A stretch of 18,181 bases of DNA from Gemmatimonadota bacterium (lineage in GTDB: Bacteria; Latescibacterota; UBA2968; UBA8231), in assembly GCA_002712305.1 (NCBI GenBank), contig PATE01000015.1, positions 1 through 18,181 on the forward strand, given 5' to 3'. The notes beneath the pieces are model-generated. The model saw only the letters and a list, made by a program, of their open reading frames with translations. It ran no database searches and had not been told where the DNA came from. The position numbers were made by a program, and so were the translations under genes. Shown piece by piece: positions 2,810-13,745 of this stretch (positions are counted from its first letter, which is position 1; every line of letters begins with the position of its first letter).

Positions 2810-4057
2810 TCACGATTCCGAACCCCCTTGCACGCGAGGCTGAATCCATTGGGTGACGATGAGCGACACTACAGCCAGCGCTGAACCGCTGAGGAAGATC
2901 ACCCGGTGTCCGAAGTAGTGCCATGCGAGCCCGCCAATCAAGGGGGCAGCCACGGCAGCCAGATGATTCATGGTGACCCCCATGGAGAGGGTTGGTTTCA
3001 GATCGGCTGCGTCGGCGATGCGGTGTACGTATGTCGTGAGGGCGATGCTGCCGAAGAAAATGAGATTGTCCACACAATACAGGACATAGAGCGTAGGACG
3101 ATGGTCGATCAGAGCATATCCGGCGAAGACGAAAACGAGTCCGATGTAACTGGCACTCAACATGACGCGTTCGCCAAAGCGGTCGACGAGGCGGCCCAAC
3201 AAGGGCGCTGTGAGCGTGATCAGGACCTGGTTGACGAAGACGAGAATCATCGTCGTCTCCACCGGCATTCCATGAACCTTCACGAGGGCGAAAATGGCGA
3301 AGGTGATGAACATCTGCTTGCGGCAGCCCTGCAGGAAGTTCAGAGCATAGTAGAGGTAGTATCTGCGACGAAAAACGAAGCGCTCCGAATCGGCGTCCAC
3401 GACTTCCCGACGGATCAGCAGCAGGGCCATCCCACCGACTACGGTCACGAGCCCGGCGATCGTGAACATATCCTCGTAGAAGCCTTGCAGACCACTGCTG
3501 GATGCTGAATCGATGTACTCGAACAAGAGCATGCACGCACCGATCGCTAGCAGCCAGCTGAAGCTGCTGACCGCCCGCAACTGGCCCAGCCACCTCCCTT
3601 TATTTCCGGATGGCGAAAGACTCAGTCCCATCGCCTGCTCGAGAGGGACCCAACAATGAAAGCCGATGCTCCAGACGAAAGAGAAGATCGCGAGGGACGT
3701 GACCGAATCGGTATATCGATAGGCGGCCAAGCCAAGCCCCATGACCGTAAGTGAAAGGGCGGCAATACGGGAAGGAATCCAGCGGATCATCGCCGCGATG
3801 AAGAGGACATTCAGGAAACCGGGGACCTCTCGCAGCCCTTCGACCATGCCCAGTTCGTGGGGTTCGATCCCCAAACGGCTGACGATGAAGTTGTTGAATA
3901 CCGTCAGTTGCACGCCAAAGAAGAACCCAACCCCACCGACAGCGATCGCCAGCAACGTGAAATTCCGCGTCCATCCTTCGAACAACCGACCGATCCATCG
4001 TATCCGTGTGAGTCTCAAATGGATCTCGAACCCACCGCCCGCCTTGCGATCGCTCAT
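2810..4057 (-). CDS. MFS transporter
   Basis: A 415-residue integral membrane protein with about 12 hydrophobic segments, of the major facilitator superfamily. The N-terminal half begins with a charged cytoplasmic stretch and a first helix around FTLLAIAVGGVGFFFGVQL. The C-terminal half carries a clear MFS loop motif, LLGRLVDRFGERV, between two helices. The start is taken at ATG 4057, which overlaps the TGA of the methyltransferase gene by ATGA. The open frame extends upstream to 4369, but there it only runs antiframe through the methyltransferase, so the longer start is rejected. No strong SD is visible, consistent with coupling to the upstream gene. The position directly after a betaine-forming methyltransferase permits, but does not prove, export or uptake of betaine or a precursor. 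Sugar transport is an alternative given the downstream dehydrogenases. Confidence 0.9.
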   Translation of the reverse strand: MSDRKAGGGFEIHLRLTRIRWIGRLFEGWTRNFTLLAIAVGGVGFFFGVQLTVFNNFIVSRLGIEPHELGMVEGLREVPGFLNVLFIAAMIRWIPSRIAALSLTVMGLGLAAYRYTDSVTSLAIFSFVWSIGFHCWVPLEQAMGLSLSPSGNKGRWLGQLRAVSSFSWLLAIGACMLLFEYIDSASSSGLQGFYEDMFTIAGLVTVVGGMALLLIRREVVDADSERFVFRRRYYLYYALNFLQGCRKQMFITFAIFALVKVHGMPVETTMILVFVNQVLITLTAPLLGRLVDRFGERVMLSASYIGLVFVFAGYALIDHRPTLYVLYCVDNLIFFGSIALTTYVHRIADAADLKPTLSMGVTMNHLAAVAAPLIGGLAWHYFGHRVIFLSGSALAVVSLIVTQWIQPRVQGGSES

Positions 4058-4899
4058 GCGGGGGAAGGCTTCCGGAAGACGAAGATCCCCCAGACGAGGT
4101 AGCCTCGCTCGCCACCGTCGACCCAGTGGGACAGGCCCTTCTTCATCCGCTCCAGGTAATCGCTGCTGACCCGGTGCTTCAGGGCCGCCTCCCACAGCTC
4201 GGTCTCCGTCAGGACGCGGCCGTAGTGCGTGCTCAGGTGGGGTGAGAGGTCCCGGAAGGCGACCTCCTCCAGTCCTTGCACGGACGCCGCCGACCGGTAG
4301 AAGGCGGGGGAGCCGAGATCGCTCAGGTGGATGCGGTCCAGGATGGGCTGCAAGACACCGTCGGGGCAATCGTCGGCCTGCATGATGTCGGTGAAGGCGA
4401 AGACGCCGCCCGGCTTGAGCACCCGAGCTGCCTCGGAGACCACGCGGAGTCGCTCGCCACTGTGCAGGAACGCATCCTGCGAGCAGACGGCGTCGAAGCT
4501 CTCGCCCGGTGAGTCGACGGCCTCGAAGCTGCCGTCGACGATGGTCACCCGTTCCTGGAGGCCGCGATCCTCGTTCAGCTGTCGGGCGCGCTGGTTCTCC
4601 ACCTCACTCAGATTCAGCCCGGTGACACGGCATCCCGTCGTCTCGGCCAGGTAGCGGGCGGTGCCCCCGTAACCGGAGCCCATGTCCAGGACGTGCATCG
4701 AGTCGTCGAGACGGCCCAGCTGCTGGGCGAGCTGCTCGACGGTGCGGCGGCTGGCCTCGGCGATCGTGTCCTCGTCGGACTCGTAGAGGCCGATGTGGAT
4801 GTCCTCCCCACCCCACACGGTGGAGTAGAAGGTCTCGGCGTCTTCGCTGTTGTAGTAATCGCGCGCCGTCTGCACGACATCGGTGTAGTTCGCCGTCAT
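4054..4899 (-). CDS. bsmB: Sarcosine/dimethylglycine N-methyltransferase (SDMT type)
   Basis: A 281-residue SAM-dependent methyltransferase closely resembling the dimethylglycine N-methyltransferases of halophiles (EC 2.1.1.157 type), which methylate sarcosine and dimethylglycine to the osmolyte glycine betaine. Seen: the N-terminal YYNSEDAETFY and WGGEDIHIGLYE (29-40) signature of this family; SAM motif I in VLDMGSGYGGTARYLA (70-85); SQDAFLHS (140-147); and MQADDCPDGVLQPILDRIHL (173-192), then RMKKGLSHWVDGG and YLVWGIFVFRK at the C-terminus. The length is typical for the family and all major motifs are present, so it looks functional. The start overlaps the end of a glycine/sarcosine methyltransferase remnant by ATGA, and its stop overlaps the MFS start the same way. 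The assignment rests on motif recall, not an alignment. Confidence 0.9.
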   Translation of the reverse strand: MTANYTDVVQTARDYYNSEDAETFYSTVWGGEDIHIGLYESDEDTIAEASRRTVEQLAQQLGRLDDSMHVLDMGSGYGGTARYLAETTGCRVTGLNLSEVENQRARQLNEDRGLQERVTIVDGSFEAVDSPGESFDAVCSQDAFLHSGERLRVVSEAARVLKPGGVFAFTDIMQADDCPDGVLQPILDRIHLSDLGSPAFYRSAASVQGLEEVAFRDLSPHLSTHYGRVLTETELWEAALKHRVSSDYLERMKKGLSHWVDGGERGYLVWGIFVFRKPSPA

Positions 4900-5210: not shown

Positions 5211-7205
5211 TCAGTAGCCGGTCTGTGTTACGGACTTTGAGATCAGAGCAATGGCAACCGCCGACATTCCGATCAACCCCATACCGCAGGCATATCCGGC
5301 CAGCAGCACTGGCGCATACTGCCGCCAGACGCGCTGGCCGAAGCGCTTCTCCAGGTAGTATCTGGCCAGTAGAGCGCCAACCATTTCAGGGATCAGCAGA
5401 TGTGGCAAGGCCGATAGTCCGCGGACGAAGCCGTAGATGAGGGAAACCGGCAGTTGCATCCAAGACAGCAATAGGAAGGAGCCTCCTGCGAAGGCGAATC
5501 CACCACCCACCCACGCAGCCTTGATCGCCTCGTGGAACAGACTGTCCCCGCCCAACGTCGCCGAGTACCAAAGGCACTGACGCAGTGCGATCAGATGCCA
5601 GTAGGTCTGAGCATACTGGAAGGTGGGTGACGGAATAGGCCCCATCTTCCAGATGAGGGACCAGAAGATGAAACCACAGATCAGACTCAGTGGCAAGACA
5701 AGCAGTTCTGCCTTGATGAGACTGCTGAACTTCGTTCCCGTCAGTTCCACCTCACGGAACAGCTGAGCCCGACGTCCATGATCGGCATAGGGAATCGGGA
5801 CGAACCAGATGTCGATGCCACGGTAGCCGGACAGGATAAAAGCACCCTCCCGCACCATGGGAATACTGACCAATTGACCTGTGAGACCCACCATGCGCGC
5901 ATTGACATACGACAGCAGTGGCGTCAACAGAACGCCGAAGGCAAGCATGAAGACGAAGGGAAACTCGTCATCCTCGAGCAGATACACACACAGCAGAATC
6001 ATGGCGAGCGTCGACATGAGATAGACACCGATCGCCGCGAGTAAGGGCGCGTCTCCCCTGCCCTTAGGCACCTGTGTCAGTCGCGAACGCCAGCCGCCCT
6101 CAGCCGTTCTCGACGAGCGGACCGAACGGATGGCGTGCACGATGCCGATGATGCCGACAGCCAGACCTGCCCCGATGTAAACACTCAACCAAACATCCAC
6201 ATCGTTGGAGAAATTCGTCAGGATCGTGTCCATTCCCGGACGCCAGTGTGTAAGCACACCGGCGTGGTATAGCACCGGTGACCCCAGCGCGTGCAGCATG
6301 GCAGAGGCGAAGCTGCCAACGACAACCCAGAAAGGCAGGACGGTCCCCAGCAATACGAGGCCCAGATCCGTGCCGATCCCCAGAGGAGCAGCCGGCAGAA
6401 AAGACTCCGTCGTGCGAGTCAGATCAATCCAGGGAATCGGTAGCAGTGAGATGGGTTCACTGGCGATCAGTCCCGTGAGCGCAGGCAAGCCGATATACAC
6501 CGAACCGAACAGCAGGCCGATTCCCATGCCGATGGCGAAGACCCGCCACCGCCAATTGCCCTGGCCGTCGTCCTCGGCGTCGGCCAAGGCCGTGGCGCCC
6601 TGCGCGGCAACCGGGGCCAGGGGGAAAGGCAACCGTTCCACATCCGACGTGATCCTGAACAGGAAATAACCGAGGCAGAACCATTCGGCCCGCGCCAAGA
6701 TTTGGGAGATGACGAGGACGGTGAGCGGAGGAATCCATGCACGATGCAGGAATGTCCGCTCAAGCAGCGCTTCGGACCCGGCCGGTGGTGACACCCATCT
6801 CGGGATGTGTTCCGTCAGCCCAAAGCCAGCTGCCGCCTGGGACTGCACCAGATATTGATTCCAGATCAGTTGTCCAAAGGGTCCGCCGGCCAGCATTGTG
6901 CCACCAATTACGCCCGCCAGCCCCCCAGCGATGTAGTAGATGACGTAGATCTCCTGGCGCGTCAGCGACGAGAACGACCGCCGCGCCAGCTCGGAGAAAA
7001 GGATGATCGTCACCCACTCCGCCGCCGAGCCGAGACTGACCCCTGCGATCAGGCCCATGTAGATGGCGCCAGGCATCATGATGAAGCCAACGAAGAACGC
7101 CCCGAGCACGGTTCGAAACGTAAACCCGTCCTCGAACTGATCGGGTGGTTCCATCAAGCCGCGATAGGCTTCCAGTTCCACGTCCGGGGCTCTGGCCTGT
7201 AGCAA
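5211..7205 (-). CDS. OPT-like multi-spanning membrane transporter (first of a pair by sequence type; DUF6785-like)
   Basis: A 664-residue membrane protein with more than ten hydrophobic segments. Its FRITSDVERLPFPLAP segment (183-198) resembles the charged-residue-plus-LPFP motif of oligopeptide transporter (OPT) superfamily proteins. The N-terminal EPPDQFEDGFTFRTVLGAFF and AEWVTIILFSELARRSF segments are typical of uncharacterised OPT-like (DUF6785-type) proteins of uncultured bacteria. No signal peptide is seen. The start is taken at TTG 7205, with GAGAGA a few bases upstream; ATG 7154 is an in-frame alternative, but the residues before it look family-like. It lies 66 bases downstream of a second, differently sequenced OPT-like gene, and the two may form a heteromeric transporter. 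The substrate could be peptides, metal chelates or something else and is not shown by the sequence. Confidence 0.82.
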   Translation of the reverse strand: MLQARAPDVELEAYRGLMEPPDQFEDGFTFRTVLGAFFVGFIMMPGAIYMGLIAGVSLGSAAEWVTIILFSELARRSFSSLTRQEIYVIYYIAGGLAGVIGGTMLAGGPFGQLIWNQYLVQSQAAAGFGLTEHIPRWVSPPAGSEALLERTFLHRAWIPPLTVLVISQILARAEWFCLGYFLFRITSDVERLPFPLAPVAAQGATALADAEDDGQGNWRWRVFAIGMGIGLLFGSVYIGLPALTGLIASEPISLLPIPWIDLTRTTESFLPAAPLGIGTDLGLVLLGTVLPFWVVVGSFASAMLHALGSPVLYHAGVLTHWRPGMDTILTNFSNDVDVWLSVYIGAGLAVGIIGIVHAIRSVRSSRTAEGGWRSRLTQVPKGRGDAPLLAAIGVYLMSTLAMILLCVYLLEDDEFPFVFMLAFGVLLTPLLSYVNARMVGLTGQLVSIPMVREGAFILSGYRGIDIWFVPIPYADHGRRAQLFREVELTGTKFSSLIKAELLVLPLSLICGFIFWSLIWKMGPIPSPTFQYAQTYWHLIALRQCLWYSATLGGDSLFHEAIKAAWVGGGFAFAGGSFLLLSWMQLPVSLIYGFVRGLSALPHLLIPEMVGALLARYYLEKRFGQRVWRQYAPVLLAGYACGMGLIGMSAVAIALISKSVTQTGY

Positions 7206-7271: not shown

Positions 7272-9173
7272 CTACATTCCGTAACCCATGCCCAGTTCGC
7301 CCTGCCACAGCGCTACGATCGCCCACAGAACACGCATGCAGATCTCACCGAAGATCAGACCGAGGAACAGGGGTCGAATCTGTCGATACGTCGTCGCACC
7401 GCCATAGCGGACCGTCAGCCACTTGGCGAACCAGCCCAACAGGGCCGGTCCCCACAGCCGCCAGCCGAAGCCGATTCCGAAGACAAATCCCATCGGGTGA
7501 AAGGGCCACCGGAGAAAATGCTGACGCAGCGCAGCCAGGCACCACGTAGATGCGGCACCGATGCCGTGGAAGGTTAGCCGCAGCCAGTCGGTCCCTCCCT
7601 CCACCGTGCCGGCATCTTTTATCAGATACAGGTAGAAGCGTCCGATCCGGGCCTCGTCACGTGCCCCTCCCTGCTCCTGCAGAGCGAAGATTCCGTATTC
7701 GTACATCGTCTCCAGCGAAAAGACAGTACCCGAGACCAGCCCGATCAGAAGGCCGAGGCTCATGGCCCATATCATCCGGCCTTCGCCTACACCTGTCTGT
7801 TCGGCCAGTTTGAGGCCCTCAAACTGCATTGCCGGCCACATGCCAATGATGGTGAAACCGAGGACTGCCAGGAATCCGAAGCCGACGTAGGTCTCGTCGG
7901 CAAACAGACCGGGACCCGTTCCGATAGTGACGAAGAACAGATATCCCATGATCTGGTGTACCGTCGTGATCGGCAGACCTCCGTCCACCCGCATTCGTAC
8001 AAAGGCCAGTGACAACAGGAAAAAGAGCAGGAGGCTCAAGGCTGCCAGTAACGGCGGCACCCCGATGGCGACAATCCACAGACACAAGCCGATGCAGCCG
8101 ATCAGGAAACCCCAGACAGCGCGATGCCTCAGGCTAAACATCTGCCCCAGTGACTTGCGGGCCGCCCAGAGGCTGAAACCGGCCAGAAAGAAGAGACCGC
8201 CGCGGGCCTGGCACATGAAGAATGGAAAATGACCGGGCCAGTCGAGCCAGGGCGAGCCATGGCCGGTGATGTATTCACCCCGCTCTTCCATGCGCCCCAT
8301 CATCTGCGTCAACAGTAACTGCAAGCGAGAGAACAGGAAGAAGACCCAAGTGGAGAAGGATATCTCCACGGGCGCCAGATAAGCGACACCGATCAACAGC
8401 GGCGAAAACTGAAAGACGAATGCCGACTCAAAAGGGGCCATCGATTTCCATGGTTCCTCGAGCAGGAAGTGCCCCACATCGAGGATGGTAGACAGCTCAC
8501 CCACGGCCGGATGGTAGTGATGGAGACCATTCACACCGAACAGAATTGCGGGAATCAAGCATCCCCACCAGAACAGGGGCCGGCCAAACAGCTCGTTGCG
8601 GAGTATGCCCAGCGGCAGCTCAAGAAGTGGGAATCCAACGCGCTCTACCTCCATCCAGCGGCGTCGGAGAATCAGGACCAGGCAAAGACCCGTGCCGAAG
8701 AGGAGGACGAAGAACAAGCCCCACCCAAGCAACGGTACCGTCCAGGCCTCCCACGGCACCTCGACACCCCCTTCAAAAGCGCCGACGGCAGGGGGGTCGT
8801 TTAAAGAACCAGGAACGAGCCACGAGGGCACCACCTGCAGGAACTTGTAGTACTGTCCGGTAGGTGTGGCGAAGCCGCCGTAGTAGCCCGTAACGAGACC
8901 GGGCAGGAATCGGTGTAGGAACGCAGCGCCCGTAGCGGACACGCCGATGGCGAGGGCGGCGTAGAGCGTGGCCCTCTCGCCAGGTGACACCCATCGTCGC
9001 AGAAGGGACGTCAGCGCCAGAATAAGAATGGGGATGGCGATGAAGACCTGGCCTAAGGGTGACGTGCCGCCGGCCAGGGCGGGACCGTTGAAAAGCAGTT
9101 CCGAACGCTGGATCAGCCAGGCCGATCCCGTCGTGATGGTCACGATAAGGAAGATGAGCCTCAGACTCGCCAT
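7272..9173 (-). CDS. OPT-like multi-spanning membrane transporter (DUF6785/DUF6784-like)
   Basis: A 633-residue membrane protein with about 14 hydrophobic segments beginning immediately at the N-terminus (LIFLIVTITTGSAWL). MEVERVGFPLLELPLG (174-189) parallels the ERLPFPLAP segment of the neighbouring transporter, and the C-terminal FHPMGFVFG, LGWFAKWLTVRYGG and YRQIRPLFLGLIFGE segments match what I recall of the DUF6784 end of OPT-like proteins. RVDGGLPITTVHQIMGYLF in the middle carries polar residues inside a membrane region and could line a substrate path. The ATG at 9173 lies one base after the TGA of the M28-FtsX fusion gene, so the two are translationally coupled. The second OPT-like gene follows after 66 bases. 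The role is probably import of an organic solute such as a peptide; this is inferred from family resemblance only. Confidence 0.82.
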   Translation of the reverse strand: MASLRLIFLIVTITTGSAWLIQRSELLFNGPALAGGTSPLGQVFIAIPILILALTSLLRRWVSPGERATLYAALAIGVSATGAAFLHRFLPGLVTGYYGGFATPTGQYYKFLQVVPSWLVPGSLNDPPAVGAFEGGVEVPWEAWTVPLLGWGLFFVLLFGTGLCLVLILRRRWMEVERVGFPLLELPLGILRNELFGRPLFWWGCLIPAILFGVNGLHHYHPAVGELSTILDVGHFLLEEPWKSMAPFESAFVFQFSPLLIGVAYLAPVEISFSTWVFFLFSRLQLLLTQMMGRMEERGEYITGHGSPWLDWPGHFPFFMCQARGGLFFLAGFSLWAARKSLGQMFSLRHRAVWGFLIGCIGLCLWIVAIGVPPLLAALSLLLFFLLSLAFVRMRVDGGLPITTVHQIMGYLFFVTIGTGPGLFADETYVGFGFLAVLGFTIIGMWPAMQFEGLKLAEQTGVGEGRMIWAMSLGLLIGLVSGTVFSLETMYEYGIFALQEQGGARDEARIGRFYLYLIKDAGTVEGGTDWLRLTFHGIGAASTWCLAALRQHFLRWPFHPMGFVFGIGFGWRLWGPALLGWFAKWLTVRYGGATTYRQIRPLFLGLIFGEICMRVLWAIVALWQGELGMGYGM

Positions 9174-9174
9174 C

Positions 9175-12100
9175 TCACGCTTCCCCGTGCGCTTTGGGGA
9201 TCAACCAATCCGACAGTCGGGCTACATAGATCTCTCGATCGGTGTCGGACAGAGCACGCCACATCAGAAACTGTTTACGCAGATCGTCGAGGAAAGTGCG
9301 ACTGACGCGGGTCCATGTATCCTGATCCCCCGACACCAAATTCAGCGTAACATCGATATCGCAGTACCGGGGATCGATTCCGGGTGCCATCAGTAGTGAG
9401 ACCTCCTGTACGACACCCTGATCGAAAGGGGCCAGCCAGGTTCGTGCCTCGACACAGATACGAGCGGCGGCATCGTGGTCCCCCTCGGTTCCACCGCACA
9501 CGGCCAGCGATTCCACGTAGAATCCGGCCCCGATCGACTGTTCCTGATGAGCCGCCCAGAATTCGGCCTGAAAGACAGCCATTCCCATGGCGTCCCGGCG
9601 GTTCAGCGTGAAGGGCAGTCGCATCTGCAGACAATGGCCTTCGGGTGCTGGTGGACGCCAGCGGCGCTCCACGCCGGGTGTGCAGATACGACCCGCCATG
9701 TGGGCAGGGTACAGAGCCGACAACACGACCAGGACTATCACCAGTCCCAAGGTCATGACCGCCGACATGGAGGAATAGTTCAGCTGCAGTCCCGGGAACA
9801 GTCCCAGGGCGCCCATACCCTGTGCCGCCGCCTGTCCGAGCAGATAGCCGAGGACGGCGCCGATCACGGCGAAGGCCACCGCTTCCGACATGAACAGACC
9901 ACTCACGTGATTGGGCGCCAGACCCACGGCATTGAAGGTGCCGATTTCGCGAGTTCGCTCGTACACGGCGCCCAGCATTGTGTTCAAGACGACGAGGGCG
10001 GCAATACCCACGGGGACGACGAGGGCCCCCAGTCCCGAGACGGAGGCGACTCCTACGGTGTTGACGAGATACCGGCGGCCCTCAAAACCGACGAAAAGAT
10101 TCAGATCGAGGGTTTCAGACAGCTCTGTGAGCACCTGGTGTGCATCGTCGTCGGAGACGACGATCCCCACCGATGCCAGGGTCGCTTTCTCCCAACGCAG
10201 TAACGACGCAAAGGGTAACACCGCCACCTGGGCCCCGGGCAGGTGTGTGAAAGCCGGCAGACGACCGGAGCTGGTGCCCATCTCCGACTCCACTGGCTTC
10301 TGAGCTTCTGGATCCAAGGGCGTCAGCGGCTCGCCGTTGAGATCCGGGCGATCCAGGGCCTGGGGAGCCAGCAGACCGATGACACGGAAAGACTCGCCGA
10401 AGATCCGCACCTGCACCGATCCCAGATCAGCTGCAGCGATCCCAAGAGAATCGGCGACTCCCGTGGGCAGCAGGCAGACGTCCTGCTCCCCGACGGCCAA
10501 CCAGCGACCTGCCACCAGATCCTGCTGCGGGGCGACCAACTCCGCTTCCCTTGCCGTTAGACCTGCAAACCCAAGAACCCCAGCTGACCGACGTGACACC
10601 TCGCCGGGCCCCTGCTCAAGATCGAGCCGGAAACTGCTGGACAGATTCGTCACGGACATCCATGCCCTGGGCACCGTGCGCTCAGGGCCGAAACGGTCTC
10701 GCAGCGCATCGTAGGCGTTCATCTCCATGGTCCGCCACGATCGCATCCGCACCAGAGCGCCTGAGTAGGGTGCGGTTTGCTGCGTGTCGACCCAGTTGGC
10801 GCGCAGTGACTCCTGGATCGATGTGAAAGAGAGGACGACGAAGGTGAGCAGGACCAGTGTCGAGCAGGTCAGGGCAGTTCGCAACGGACGCCGTCGCAGA
10901 TGAGCCAGCCCCACAGACACGGAGGTCAGCATGGTCCCTGCCCGCCCCGTGTCACCACGGCCGTGGCCACCCGCCAGATCGACCAATTCTCGATTCAGGC
11001 GGGAGATCCCGATGCCCGTCACCAGCAATCCGAGAGACAGAATGACGAAACCCAGCAGGATGATGACGGGAGAGATCGACAATTCGAAGGCCGGGTGCAG
11101 GTATCGCAGTGCGAGAAAACCGGCAAGAAAGAAAGCGAAGTAGGCGATCACCTGACGCCGCACGTCGGAGAAGCCGAACAGCAACCGTTCCATGAAATGG
11201 GCGAAGGGCAGCAGCGCCGCCAGCAGAAAGAGAGCTCCCTTGATGACTCCGGCCTGCGTCCGTTCCACATCACGATAGGCGCTGATGGCATAAGCCCACG
11301 CCCGGCGCGAGCGTTCGATGAACGCCTGGTGGCGGTTCTGTGCGCGGGCCAATTCAGCCGCGGACAGGTGATCTCGCGCCTTCTCCGAGAAGCTGCTCAA
11401 GCGGCCATTTCGAACACCGTGGCGTCGCAGGTTGCCGATACGCTGTTCGTTCAGGGACTGCACGTCATGGGCTACCCGGTAGATGGAATGAGTCAGGCGC
11501 CCCTCACCTTCCACGATGTAGCCGTGGCCTGTGGGTTTTCGTGAATCAGAGTTGAGCAGCAACAGTCGACGACCCAGGCCAAAGGTGCCCGTCGTCATGA
11601 CCACTTTGACCCGCGTGTCGGCCGGCGCGAAGGCCACAGCTGCCGGCTCAATCCAGGAACCGACACGGTTCTTGTATCCGAACAGGTCCATCTCGACCGG
11701 TGTCAGGGGTAGCGTTCCACCCAGGACGGGCAATTCCGCTTCGGTGATCGCGTCGATCAGTTCCAGTCGTTCGGGTGTGATCAGATTGCGAGGGTCGAAG
11801 ATGTCGGGCAGGGCCAGCCCCTTCATCTCAGCCGTGACGATCTGTACCTCTTTGTCGAAGTCGTCCATCTGCACTGTGAGTCTGCGGCCGGGTAGCCGCC
11901 GTTCACCGTGTAGTCCCCAATCCGATACAGCCGTCACTTCGCCCGTCAGCGAATCGAGGCCATACGCCTCGATCCGCACGGGTCGCGTATAGATGATACG
12001 AGTCTCGATACCCGGGATCTCGAACCGACCCGAATCATCCGCTACCGCCCAGACGTCCGGTCTCACACCGACCATCGTCGGCTCGCGCAACCTCACCCGT

Positions 12101-13650
12101 ACCAGGGCCCCCGCCGTCGGCTGATCGGGCAGATAGCTACGCGGGCCAAAGTGAACGACCTGCCCTCGAAGCGTACCGAAGACGTCATTCCCCCATTCCC
12201 AGGCCTCAAGGTCTTCATCCTCCCACAGCCGTGGCAGGAGCCAGGTAAGCAGCTGGACCTGCCTGCTGAGTCGGATGAGTCGGTCCTCGTCCAAATCGGA
12301 GAACCGGTCCAGGGGCATGTCGGTCAGCGGGCGGCTATCGTTGAAGGTTTGGAAGATGAGGGCAGGACATCCTGCCAACGCCGCCACCGAGGCCCCCACA
12401 GGCAGCACGTGGGGCAGCCCACCCAGATCGAGCCGGGATAGATCCTGTCGCAGCCCGTTGCCGAGAATCCTGCGCCCCCCAAGCACGGAGTCCTCGTAGG
12501 CGACGGCCAGACCCATGAGCCGCTCGGTGAGCGGTGGCGCTATCAGGGGCGTACGGAAGGGTGCCGCTGGTTTGCCCACACCGAGGATGTCGCTGCCCGT
12601 CGACAGATCCAGGCCGACGAACATCCGCAACTCAAACTGTCCGAGACGATCGACCAGGGCGGCGTCGCCAGGCGAGAGATCTGCCTCTCGTGGGCGGCGT
12701 CCGGCAGCCTGTTGCAGCAGGGGCACCAGATGTCGCATACCCGCCAGATTGTGGTAGTGGCCATCGGACAGCACGAGCGCCACACTACGGCGCGGTGGAC
12801 GGATCTGCAGCGCGCGTGCCAGCTCCAGCAGGGCGGCGGCGCTGCTGGCCTGTTCTGCGCCGGGGGCCAGGGCAGGCACGCTCGACATGGCATCGTAGTG
12901 GGCGCCGGCCATGACGAGTTCCGATCGCAGGTCTGGGTCGGATCCCTCGATGATGCCGATGAGGTTCGTCGCCGTCACATTCACCCACGACATCCGGCCT
13001 TCGATCAACACATTCGAACCGGACTTAGCCAGTTGGCGCAGGTCGTCGGCGATCGGCGCGGCAGCGTAGAGGCGGGGAAAGGCAGCGGGCACTCCAAGAA
13101 ACTTCTGCGCCGCCTCTTTCCGGTGGGCCGGGCCTGTCTCGAGAAAGATGACGGCGCTGGCGCCGAGAAGGAAGGCATCCATCCACGCAGTACCACTGTC
13201 GTAGTCGAGCAGGACAATCCGATCCTCGATATCCTGTCCATCGAGTCCAGACAGAACATCGCCACCCGCATCGATCAGGCGGCCCCGCAAGCCGGCCACC
13301 GGCAGTGTGGATGTACGCACGAGATTCGGCCACACCGAATGCAGACGATACTGAAGTCCTGATGCCGACAGCGTGAATCCCTCATCGACGGGAACCGGCA
13401 CGGCAAATGACTGCCTGTGGATCTCCGTCACGCCGCTGTGTCCCAGCGCCTGGATGAGATACTCAGCCGCTTCGGCGGCACCCGCGTAGCCAGTGACTCG
13501 CGACTCCACAGCAGACAGAGCAGCGACAACATCGCGCAGACGCTCATCTGACTCAACCGACACCGCCCACGCAGACGGGGCCAGGATGCTCATCAGCAGA
13601 ATGACGACGGCGAAACGCAGGACTGACACTCCACTCGGTGGGGGGCACAT
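9175..13650 (-). CDS. Degenerate M28 peptidase domain fused to FtsX/MacB-type permease
   Basis: A 1491-residue protein. The order is: signal peptide or anchor (1-29, ending APSAWA); M28-like domain with PA-type insert (about 35-475); carboxypeptidase-regulatory-like beta region (about 488-597); uncharacterised region (600-760); three or four membrane helices (about 801-885); an FtsX/MacB-like unit with helix 925-945, periplasmic domain 950-1190 and three helices (about 1200-1320, containing VYERTREIGTFNAVGLAP); and a soluble C-terminus. M28 metal sites look broken: HYD (251-253) is present, but GADDN is GAEQA, the usual GEE is DGHYHN (296-301), and the last His region reads TFNDSRP. It is therefore probably a binding or scaffold domain. 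ATG 13650 is preferred over 13701 because AGGGA (13657-13661) and the signal peptide fit. No ABC ATPase gene is in the window. Confidence 0.85.
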   Translation of the reverse strand: MCPPPSGVSVLRFAVVILLMSILAPSAWAVSVESDERLRDVVAALSAVESRVTGYAGAAEAAEYLIQALGHSGVTEIHRQSFAVPVPVDEGFTLSASGLQYRLHSVWPNLVRTSTLPVAGLRGRLIDAGGDVLSGLDGQDIEDRIVLLDYDSGTAWMDAFLLGASAVIFLETGPAHRKEAAQKFLGVPAAFPRLYAAAPIADDLRQLAKSGSNVLIEGRMSWVNVTATNLIGIIEGSDPDLRSELVMAGAHYDAMSSVPALAPGAEQASSAAALLELARALQIRPPRRSVALVLSDGHYHNLAGMRHLVPLLQQAAGRRPREADLSPGDAALVDRLGQFELRMFVGLDLSTGSDILGVGKPAAPFRTPLIAPPLTERLMGLAVAYEDSVLGGRRILGNGLRQDLSRLDLGGLPHVLPVGASVAALAGCPALIFQTFNDSRPLTDMPLDRFSDLDEDRLIRLSRQVQLLTWLLPRLWEDEDLEAWEWGNDVFGTLRGQVVHFGPRSYLPDQPTAGALVRVRLREPTMVGVRPDVWAVADDSGRFEIPGIETRIIYTRPVRIEAYGLDSLTGEVTAVSDWGLHGERRLPGRRLTVQMDDFDKEVQIVTAEMKGLALPDIFDPRNLITPERLELIDAITEAELPVLGGTLPLTPVEMDLFGYKNRVGSWIEPAAVAFAPADTRVKVVMTTGTFGLGRRLLLLNSDSRKPTGHGYIVEGEGRLTHSIYRVAHDVQSLNEQRIGNLRRHGVRNGRLSSFSEKARDHLSAAELARAQNRHQAFIERSRRAWAYAISAYRDVERTQAGVIKGALFLLAALLPFAHFMERLLFGFSDVRRQVIAYFAFFLAGFLALRYLHPAFELSISPVIILLGFVILSLGLLVTGIGISRLNRELVDLAGGHGRGDTGRAGTMLTSVSVGLAHLRRRPLRTALTCSTLVLLTFVVLSFTSIQESLRANWVDTQQTAPYSGALVRMRSWRTMEMNAYDALRDRFGPERTVPRAWMSVTNLSSSFRLDLEQGPGEVSRRSAGVLGFAGLTAREAELVAPQQDLVAGRWLAVGEQDVCLLPTGVADSLGIAAADLGSVQVRIFGESFRVIGLLAPQALDRPDLNGEPLTPLDPEAQKPVESEMGTSSGRLPAFTHLPGAQVAVLPFASLLRWEKATLASVGIVVSDDDAHQVLTELSETLDLNLFVGFEGRRYLVNTVGVASVSGLGALVVPVGIAALVVLNTMLGAVYERTREIGTFNAVGLAPNHVSGLFMSEAVAFAVIGAVLGYLLGQAAAQGMGALGLFPGLQLNYSSMSAVMTLGLVIVLVVLSALYPAHMAGRICTPGVERRWRPPAPEGHCLQMRLPFTLNRRDAMGMAVFQAEFWAAHQEQSIGAGFYVESLAVCGGTEGDHDAAARICVEARTWLAPFDQGVVQEVSLLMAPGIDPRYCDIDVTLNLVSGDQDTWTRVSRTFLDDLRKQFLMWRALSDTDREIYVARLSDWLIPKAHGEA

Positions 13651-13653
13651 GAT

Positions 13654-13661
13654 CTCTCCCT
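13654..13661 (-). promoter_or_regulatory. Ribosome binding site that decides the M28-FtsX start
   Basis: On the minus strand AGGGAGAG is followed by ATC and the ATG at 13650 (AGGGA to ATG spacing 6). The frame also contains an upstream ATG at 13701, but that start would place 17 charged residues before the signal peptide and has no comparable SD. Confidence 0.75.
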
Positions 13662-13745
13662 GCTGAAGGTAGTGTATCCTCTCGTGGCGGTCTTCCCTCA
13701 CTCCACCTCTGCCACCTTCATGACACCGCTTTCCGCGACGGGTTC

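Follow-up and report, generated by a model that had tools for sequence, protein, structure and literature searches.

What does a peptidase fold without its canonical catalytic residues do as part of the same polypeptide as an FtsX-type permease? This question is raised by a gene on the minus strand of the window, i.e., the whole stretch of 18,181 nucleotides that was analyzed. Its reading frame is open over 1508 codons from GTG 13701 and over 1491 from ATG 13650, the latter being the start behind the length of 1491 residues given in the first-pass annotation. In the product, Pfam places Peptidase_M28 at residues 246-326 (E 9e-8) and FtsX at 1229-1336 (E 3e-13), and MacB_PCD, at residues 942-1113 (E 7e-5), falls under the cut-off. 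The fusion protein is composed of a putative signal peptide, an M28 fold with a PA-like insertion, a beta-rich region, three transmembrane (TM) helices and a permease of the MacB/LolC/FtsX type, and it ends in a domain resembling Bet v 1, with the following coordinates:

9175-13701, minus strand: pseudo-M28/FtsX fusion gene (single open frame and homologs)
13564-13650, minus strand: signal-peptide-like N-terminus, residues 18-46 (hydrophobic run LRFAVVILLMSILAPSAWA, read from the sequence)
12202-13575, minus strand: M28 aminopeptidase fold, residues 43-500, into which a PA-like domain is inserted (Pfam, AF2, VIA)
12319-12900, minus strand: remodeled active-site pocket (118-sequence alignment; profile alignments to 2ek8, 2anp and nicalin)
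11512-12180, minus strand: beta-rich region, residues 508-730 (AF2; without a Pfam match)
10972-11487, minus strand: residues 739-910, forming helical hairpins and the three additional TM helices (AF2)
10822-10887, minus strand: TM1 of the FtsX fold, residues 939-960, with an amphipathic helix ahead of it (AF2, VIA)
10051-10806, minus strand: MacB-like extracytoplasmic domain, residues 966-1217 (VIA, Pfam)
9685-10041, minus strand: FtsX TM2-TM4, residues 1221-1339 (Pfam FtsX in 45/45 members; conservation)
9241-9639, minus strand: C-terminal Bet v 1-like helix-grip domain, residues 1355-1487 (VIA; conservation)

The joining of the M28 fold to the permease in one polypeptide is confirmed by the open frame, Pfam, the AF2 models with their VIA matches, and the homologs. 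Chance is excluded because full-length homologs are known from hundreds of genomes. An error of assembly is likewise ruled out, and with it the joining of two separate genes by mistake that the first-pass annotation had named as a refutation of its reading; both are excluded by hundreds of single-frame homologs, including those in single-contig genomes; the fusion is genuine. A scan of named genomes yielded at least 515 relatives, and the best 80 of these include Armatimonadota, Gemmatimonadota, Omnitrophota, Elusimicrobia and others. Among Latescibacterota, the fusion is found in 59 of 64 genomes, in one to nine copies each. Four intact copies are present in the home genome, i.e., the window copy and full-length paralogs on contigs C85, C66 and C69. 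There is also a broken fifth copy on C60 (7714-9242), in which fragments of the C-terminal half lie in two frames with a stop and adjoin a DUF6785 remnant. A search for plasmid context returned no plasmid match.

The N and C halves of the protein were modeled with AF2. The N half (46 sequences; pLDDT 89.9, pTM 0.91) belongs to the M28 fold both by its Pfam match (E 9e-8) and by its model, for which the best VIA matches (Z ~27) are M28 aminopeptidases, namely YwaD and the Vibrio enzyme (1amp/2anp). In the family, Peptidase_M28 is matched in 41/46 members and PA in 15/46; in the N half of one homolog there is, in addition, a galactose-binding domain of the F5/8 type C family. The carboxypeptidase-regulatory-like region that had also been described is without profile support, no Pfam match of that kind occurring in any of the 46 members, although the model is beta-rich at that place. 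The C half (pLDDT 84.7, pTM 0.66) comprises three long helices, an amphipathic helix, FtsX TM1, the MacB-like domain and three further TM helices. The extra TM helices lie at about 810-841, 847-868 and 878-909, and the VIA matches to permeases (HrtB, MacB, LolCDE and FtsX, Z 14-18, and also YtrF) start at residue ~126 of the C-half model. Residues 966-1217 match the periplasmic region of MacB (3ftj, VIA Z 13.2), and MacB_PCD is matched in 21/45 family members. Pfam, AF2 and VIA together place in the fusion both the FtsX/MacB permease fold and the MacB-like periplasmic domain of Type VII ABC systems, and the earlier reading of an FtsX-type permease with a large extracytoplasmic domain is borne out by Pfam FtsX and by the VIA matches to MacB, LolCDE, FtsX and HrtB. 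The coupling segment VYER.REIG....VGLAP (1246-1263, within FtsX TM2-TM4) is invariant. Overlooked in the first-pass annotation was the Bet v 1-like domain (residues ~1355-1487), which matches 1ifv/4bk6 with VIA Z ~8 over ~120 aligned residues and contains the motif WLAPFD.GV.Q, conserved to ~96-97% at most positions. Judging from the topology, this domain presumably lies in the cytoplasm next to the ATPase, whereas the M28 and beta-rich regions should be extracytoplasmic.

Could the M28 head still act as a peptidase? We aligned 118 full-length members of the family, with divergent ones deliberately fetched, and took equivalences to the canonical site from profile alignments with 2ek8, 2anp and nicalin (Vibrio aminopeptidase numbering). 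The motifs that had been quoted are all present: GAEQA aligns to the D116/D117 loop, one residue short, DGHYHN aligns to E151-E152, and the final His of M28 (H256) is missing. The canonical set of ligands and catalytic Glu (H97, D117, E151, E152, D179 and H256) was found in 0/118 members, with E151, E152 and H256 absent in all, so that the suspected loss of these residues holds throughout the family. D99 corresponds to D270 in 118/118 members, and the position of H97 is occupied by Y in 95/118 and by H in 10/118, the window protein retaining H268. The shortened bridging-Asp loop has E283 in 106/118, the general base E151 is replaced by H315 in 117/118, and at the position of E152 there are F, H, Y or other residues but never E (Y316 in the window protein). 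D179 corresponds to D365 in 113/118 and to E in 5/118, H256 is replaced by D461 in 115/118, and R457 is found in all 118. To call the site "lost" is correct for the canonical residues, but the word understates what has happened. Because the replacement residues are themselves nearly invariant, D270 and R457 being found in every member, the pocket is rebuilt and under selection, not decaying. On homology, these residues would be grouped in one pocket, and the alignment indicates that the canonical peptidase chemistry of the head is gone.

It should be noted that the near-invariant replacements, being acidic or His, might form a new metal site (E283, D365, D461 and H315). The head would then be a non-canonical metallo-hydrolase cleaving material extracted by the permease, much as YbbAP is proposed to feed TesA. 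We consider this quite improbable: in E. coli YbbAP, a hydrolase is indeed linked to a Type VII permease (PMC12646458), and the top, tied fold matches include 2anp, a solved Vibrio aminopeptidase with the mutation E151H and the word "functional" in its title, but the H97 ligand is gone in 108/118 members, no member has the general base E151, E152 or H256, and the bridging-Asp loop lacks one residue. The resemblance to YbbAP-TesA (PMC12646458) is that a periplasmic protein of hydrolase fold works with a Type VII permease; however, TesA is a separate, active esterase, whereas the M28 module of the fusion is built in and has no canonical catalytic residues. Similarly, the head shares with aminopeptidases of the YwaD/2ek8 type the M28 fold and the PA-like insertion (Z ~27, E down to 2e-20), but in the family H97 (mostly), E151, E152 and H256 are replaced, and the module is anchored in the membrane as part of a permease. 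A further likeness is to the eukaryotic nicalin and nicastrin, which are non-canonical M28 folds in membrane complexes, nicalin having the same VxPxLxxGA loop; these complexes are not known to contain an ABC permease. The profile of the head matches nicalin with E 5e-10, and the Pfam Nicastrin family is matched by 2/46 members; enzymes of the YwaD type score better.

The next question is which genes accompany the fusion. In the window, these are the two genes downstream of it:

7272-9173, minus strand: DUF6785+DUF6784 polytopic membrane protein (Pfam E 6e-88 and 1.3e-25)
5211-7205, minus strand: MemB, a 664-aa membrane protein (neighbor counts; hhalign)

A single nucleotide separates the DUF6785 gene from the end of the fusion gene, and its product scores 296 bits against a Pfam gathering cut-off of 25. 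MemB fails the DUF6785 gathering score and has no Pfam family, and its distant homology to DUF6785 was detected by hhalign alone (probability 95.6, E 1.3e-8, 548 columns). An identity of either protein as an OPT transporter was dropped, having no Pfam or PDB sequence support. The most constant neighbor of the fusion is MemB, which lies directly downstream in 52 of the 69 loci with sufficient downstream sequence; MemB or DUF6785 adjoins the fusion in 55 of the 61 loci with both flanks, and DUF6785 does so in 34/61. MemB also stands alone, with no fusion beside it, on C43 (L165, 4459-7116). The home genome has ~15 full-length DUF6785 genes, far above the number of cassettes, so DUF6785 also works elsewhere. 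A small TPR protein is encoded directly upstream of the fusion in about six loci (L029 9453-10022, L096 878-1411), and positions 4054-4899 of the window encode a methyltransferase near sarcosine/dimethylglycine N-methyltransferase (386 bits, below the cut-off of 550).

In many Armatimonadota loci, and in other phyla, the fusion heads a longer same-strand run, fusion-MemB-X1-X2-X3-X4. Complete cassettes with one fusion each are also found in the early-branching Latescibacterota G010, G012 and G015 (L173-L175). X1 is a protein of about 245-357 aa without a family, and X2 is PqqD-like (E 9e-12; L033 17460-17873 and relatives). In RiPP pathways, domains of the PqqD type are binders of leader peptides, so X2 may hint at a peptide substrate. 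In the home genome, X1-X2 adjoin the C66 fusion copy only. Our literature search, which covered few subscription papers, found no function for DUF6785 or MemB and, for DUF6785 and for M28 with FtsX, no account of the cassette; nor did it find a described system of such a layout, in agreement with the first-pass annotation.

The last two genes of the run bear on the permease. X3 is an FtsX permease of roughly 210-250 aa without a periplasmic domain (Pfam FtsX E 6e-18), and X4 is an ABC ATPase for which the closest models are LolD, MacB and YbbA. As the cassette often ends in this short FtsX protein and LolD-like ATPase, we read the fusion as one half of an ABC permease. A search for an ATPase within the window found none near the fusion. 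The home genome has X3 next to X4 on contig C41, away from all four fusions, and the link between fusion, X3 and X4 is here one of homology, not of position; the X4 of this genome is 70% identical to an Armatimonadota cassette ATPase. The genetic linkage of X4 is strong, in the cassettes of other genomes and with X3 at C41 at home. X3 adjoins X4 in 12/12 sampled Latescibacterota genomes as well as in the home genome.

Fusion and X3 also tend to be present or absent together. The 151 genomes of the Armatimonadota group comprise 115 with both, 31 with neither, 4 with the fusion only, i.e., without a strong X3 match, and 1 with X3 only (Fisher p about 1e-26, uncorrected for kinship); in 73, the two lie within 13 kb. 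For the 64 Latescibacterota genomes, the numbers are 56 with both, 5 with neither and 3, all incomplete, with the fusion only, again uncorrected for kinship; family f7 accounts for four of the five genomes that have neither gene. Both were present in 15/15 genomes reached through loci. Strong X3 matches number one per Latescibacterota genome, even beside 3-9 fusions. This ratio is not an artefact of assembly, because it is seen in four single-contig genomes (G038, G039, G050 and G051), with one X3 against 3-7 fusions.

We consider it probable that the fusion is the permease half of an undescribed Type VII ABC variant, in which it works with an X3-X4 pair, carries the pseudo-M28 module as a binding head and shares its energizer. 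The observations at hand are the architecture, the family-wide replacement of the site, the cassette, the co-occurrence and the one-to-many copy ratio; a physical complex, its coupling to ATP, the ligand of the pocket and the direction of any transport are predictions. The FtsX-type helices of the fusion would pair with X3, giving an asymmetric permease powered from the cytoplasm by two copies of X4, and helix movement driven by ATP would be transmitted to the extracytoplasmic parts, namely the MacB-like domain and the large pseudo-M28/PA head. In Type VII ABC systems, ATP-driven helix movements do extramembrane work, usually with a periplasmic partner (PMC5985334, PMC12646458). Here the head would be a built-in partner with an invariant rebuilt pocket for a substrate or another partner, most plausibly the end of a peptide or protein, and it would hold or present the substrate, perhaps jointly with MemB and DUF6785. 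Alternatively, the head possibly gates or docks these two polytopic proteins. In genomes with several fusions, including the home genome with its four intact ones, a single X3-X4 unit would serve all of them. Weighing against this reading are the separate contig of X3-X4 in the home genome, the kinship among the genomes counted for co-occurrence and the four Armatimonadota-group genomes that have a fusion but no strong X3 match.

An unlikely alternative, though one deserving real weight, is that the fusion forms a MacB-like homodimer with X4 or another LolD-like ATPase, with X3 as partner of one paralog, perhaps that on C66, and the remaining fusions as independent machines. MacB and FtsX permeases are homodimeric (PMC5985334), there are many ABC ATPases in the home genome, some of them near X4, and X1-X2 are found beside the C66 copy only. 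The joint presence or absence of fusion and X3 in two phyla argues against it, as does the X3 protein, which has no periplasmic domain of its own and would suit a heteromeric partner.

Rather improbable, in our judgment, is a purely structural head, i.e., a scaffold of the nicalin/nicastrin kind that docks or gates MemB and DUF6785, with the ABC coupling secondary. Among the PDB matches of the family profile, nicalin ranks third (E 5e-10), with the Vibrio aminopeptidase below it, yet active enzymes of the YwaD/2ek8 type outscore it; the common VxPxLxxGA loop and the Nicastrin match in 2/46 members point the same way as nicalin itself. MemB, for all its constancy as a neighbor, is missing beside some fusion copies and is also found alone, and the invariant FtsX coupling segment with the co-occurring ATPase makes incidental ATP coupling unlikely. 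We give very little credence to a BceAB-like sensory device, in which a peptide outside the cell would be detected by the head and reported to a kinase by the permease: BceAB-S, a Type VII relative with a sensing function, is among the fold matches, but about 80 fusion neighborhoods show no recurrent kinase or response regulator. The first-pass annotation had offered the M28 module as a sensor or a docking part; binding or docking fits, whereas the sensor is disfavored, as no signaling gene recurs.

Read as one half of a permease energized through X3-X4, the fusion resembles known Type VII ABC systems (MacAB-TolC, LolCDE, FtsEX and HrtBA) in its four-helix permease fold, MacB-like domain, coupling segment and the LolD-type ATPase of the cassette. 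Unlike them, it bears a pseudo-M28/PA head, three extra TM helices and a Bet v 1-like C-terminus; moreover, the other half, X3, is minimal, and one ATPase unit appears to be common to several paralogs. In ECF transporters, one energizing module is common to several substrate-specific membrane subunits. The copy ratio of 1 to 3-7 in single-contig genomes suggests a like arrangement here, with the difference that the components are an FtsX-type permease and a LolD-type ATPase, so that the likeness is in logic, not in fold. More tentatively, and with slightly less than even confidence, we propose a modular Type VII platform, in which interchangeable pseudo-peptidase halves operate on one minimal FtsX/LolD-like energizer, with the invariantly remodeled M28 pocket as receptor and dedicated polytopic partners; it would be a counterpart, of FtsX type, to ECF transporters.

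To our knowledge, no shared energizer has been described for Type VII ABC systems; if the energizer is shared, the arrangement would be new to them, as far as is known. The fusion is also a bacterial example of how an M28 fold has come to provide a membrane machine with a conserved pocket of non-canonical make-up, to be compared with nicalin and nicastrin. These results suggest a testable role for a large family found in almost all Latescibacterota and in most of the sampled Armatimonadota-group genomes, as well as for its DUF6785 and MemB partners.
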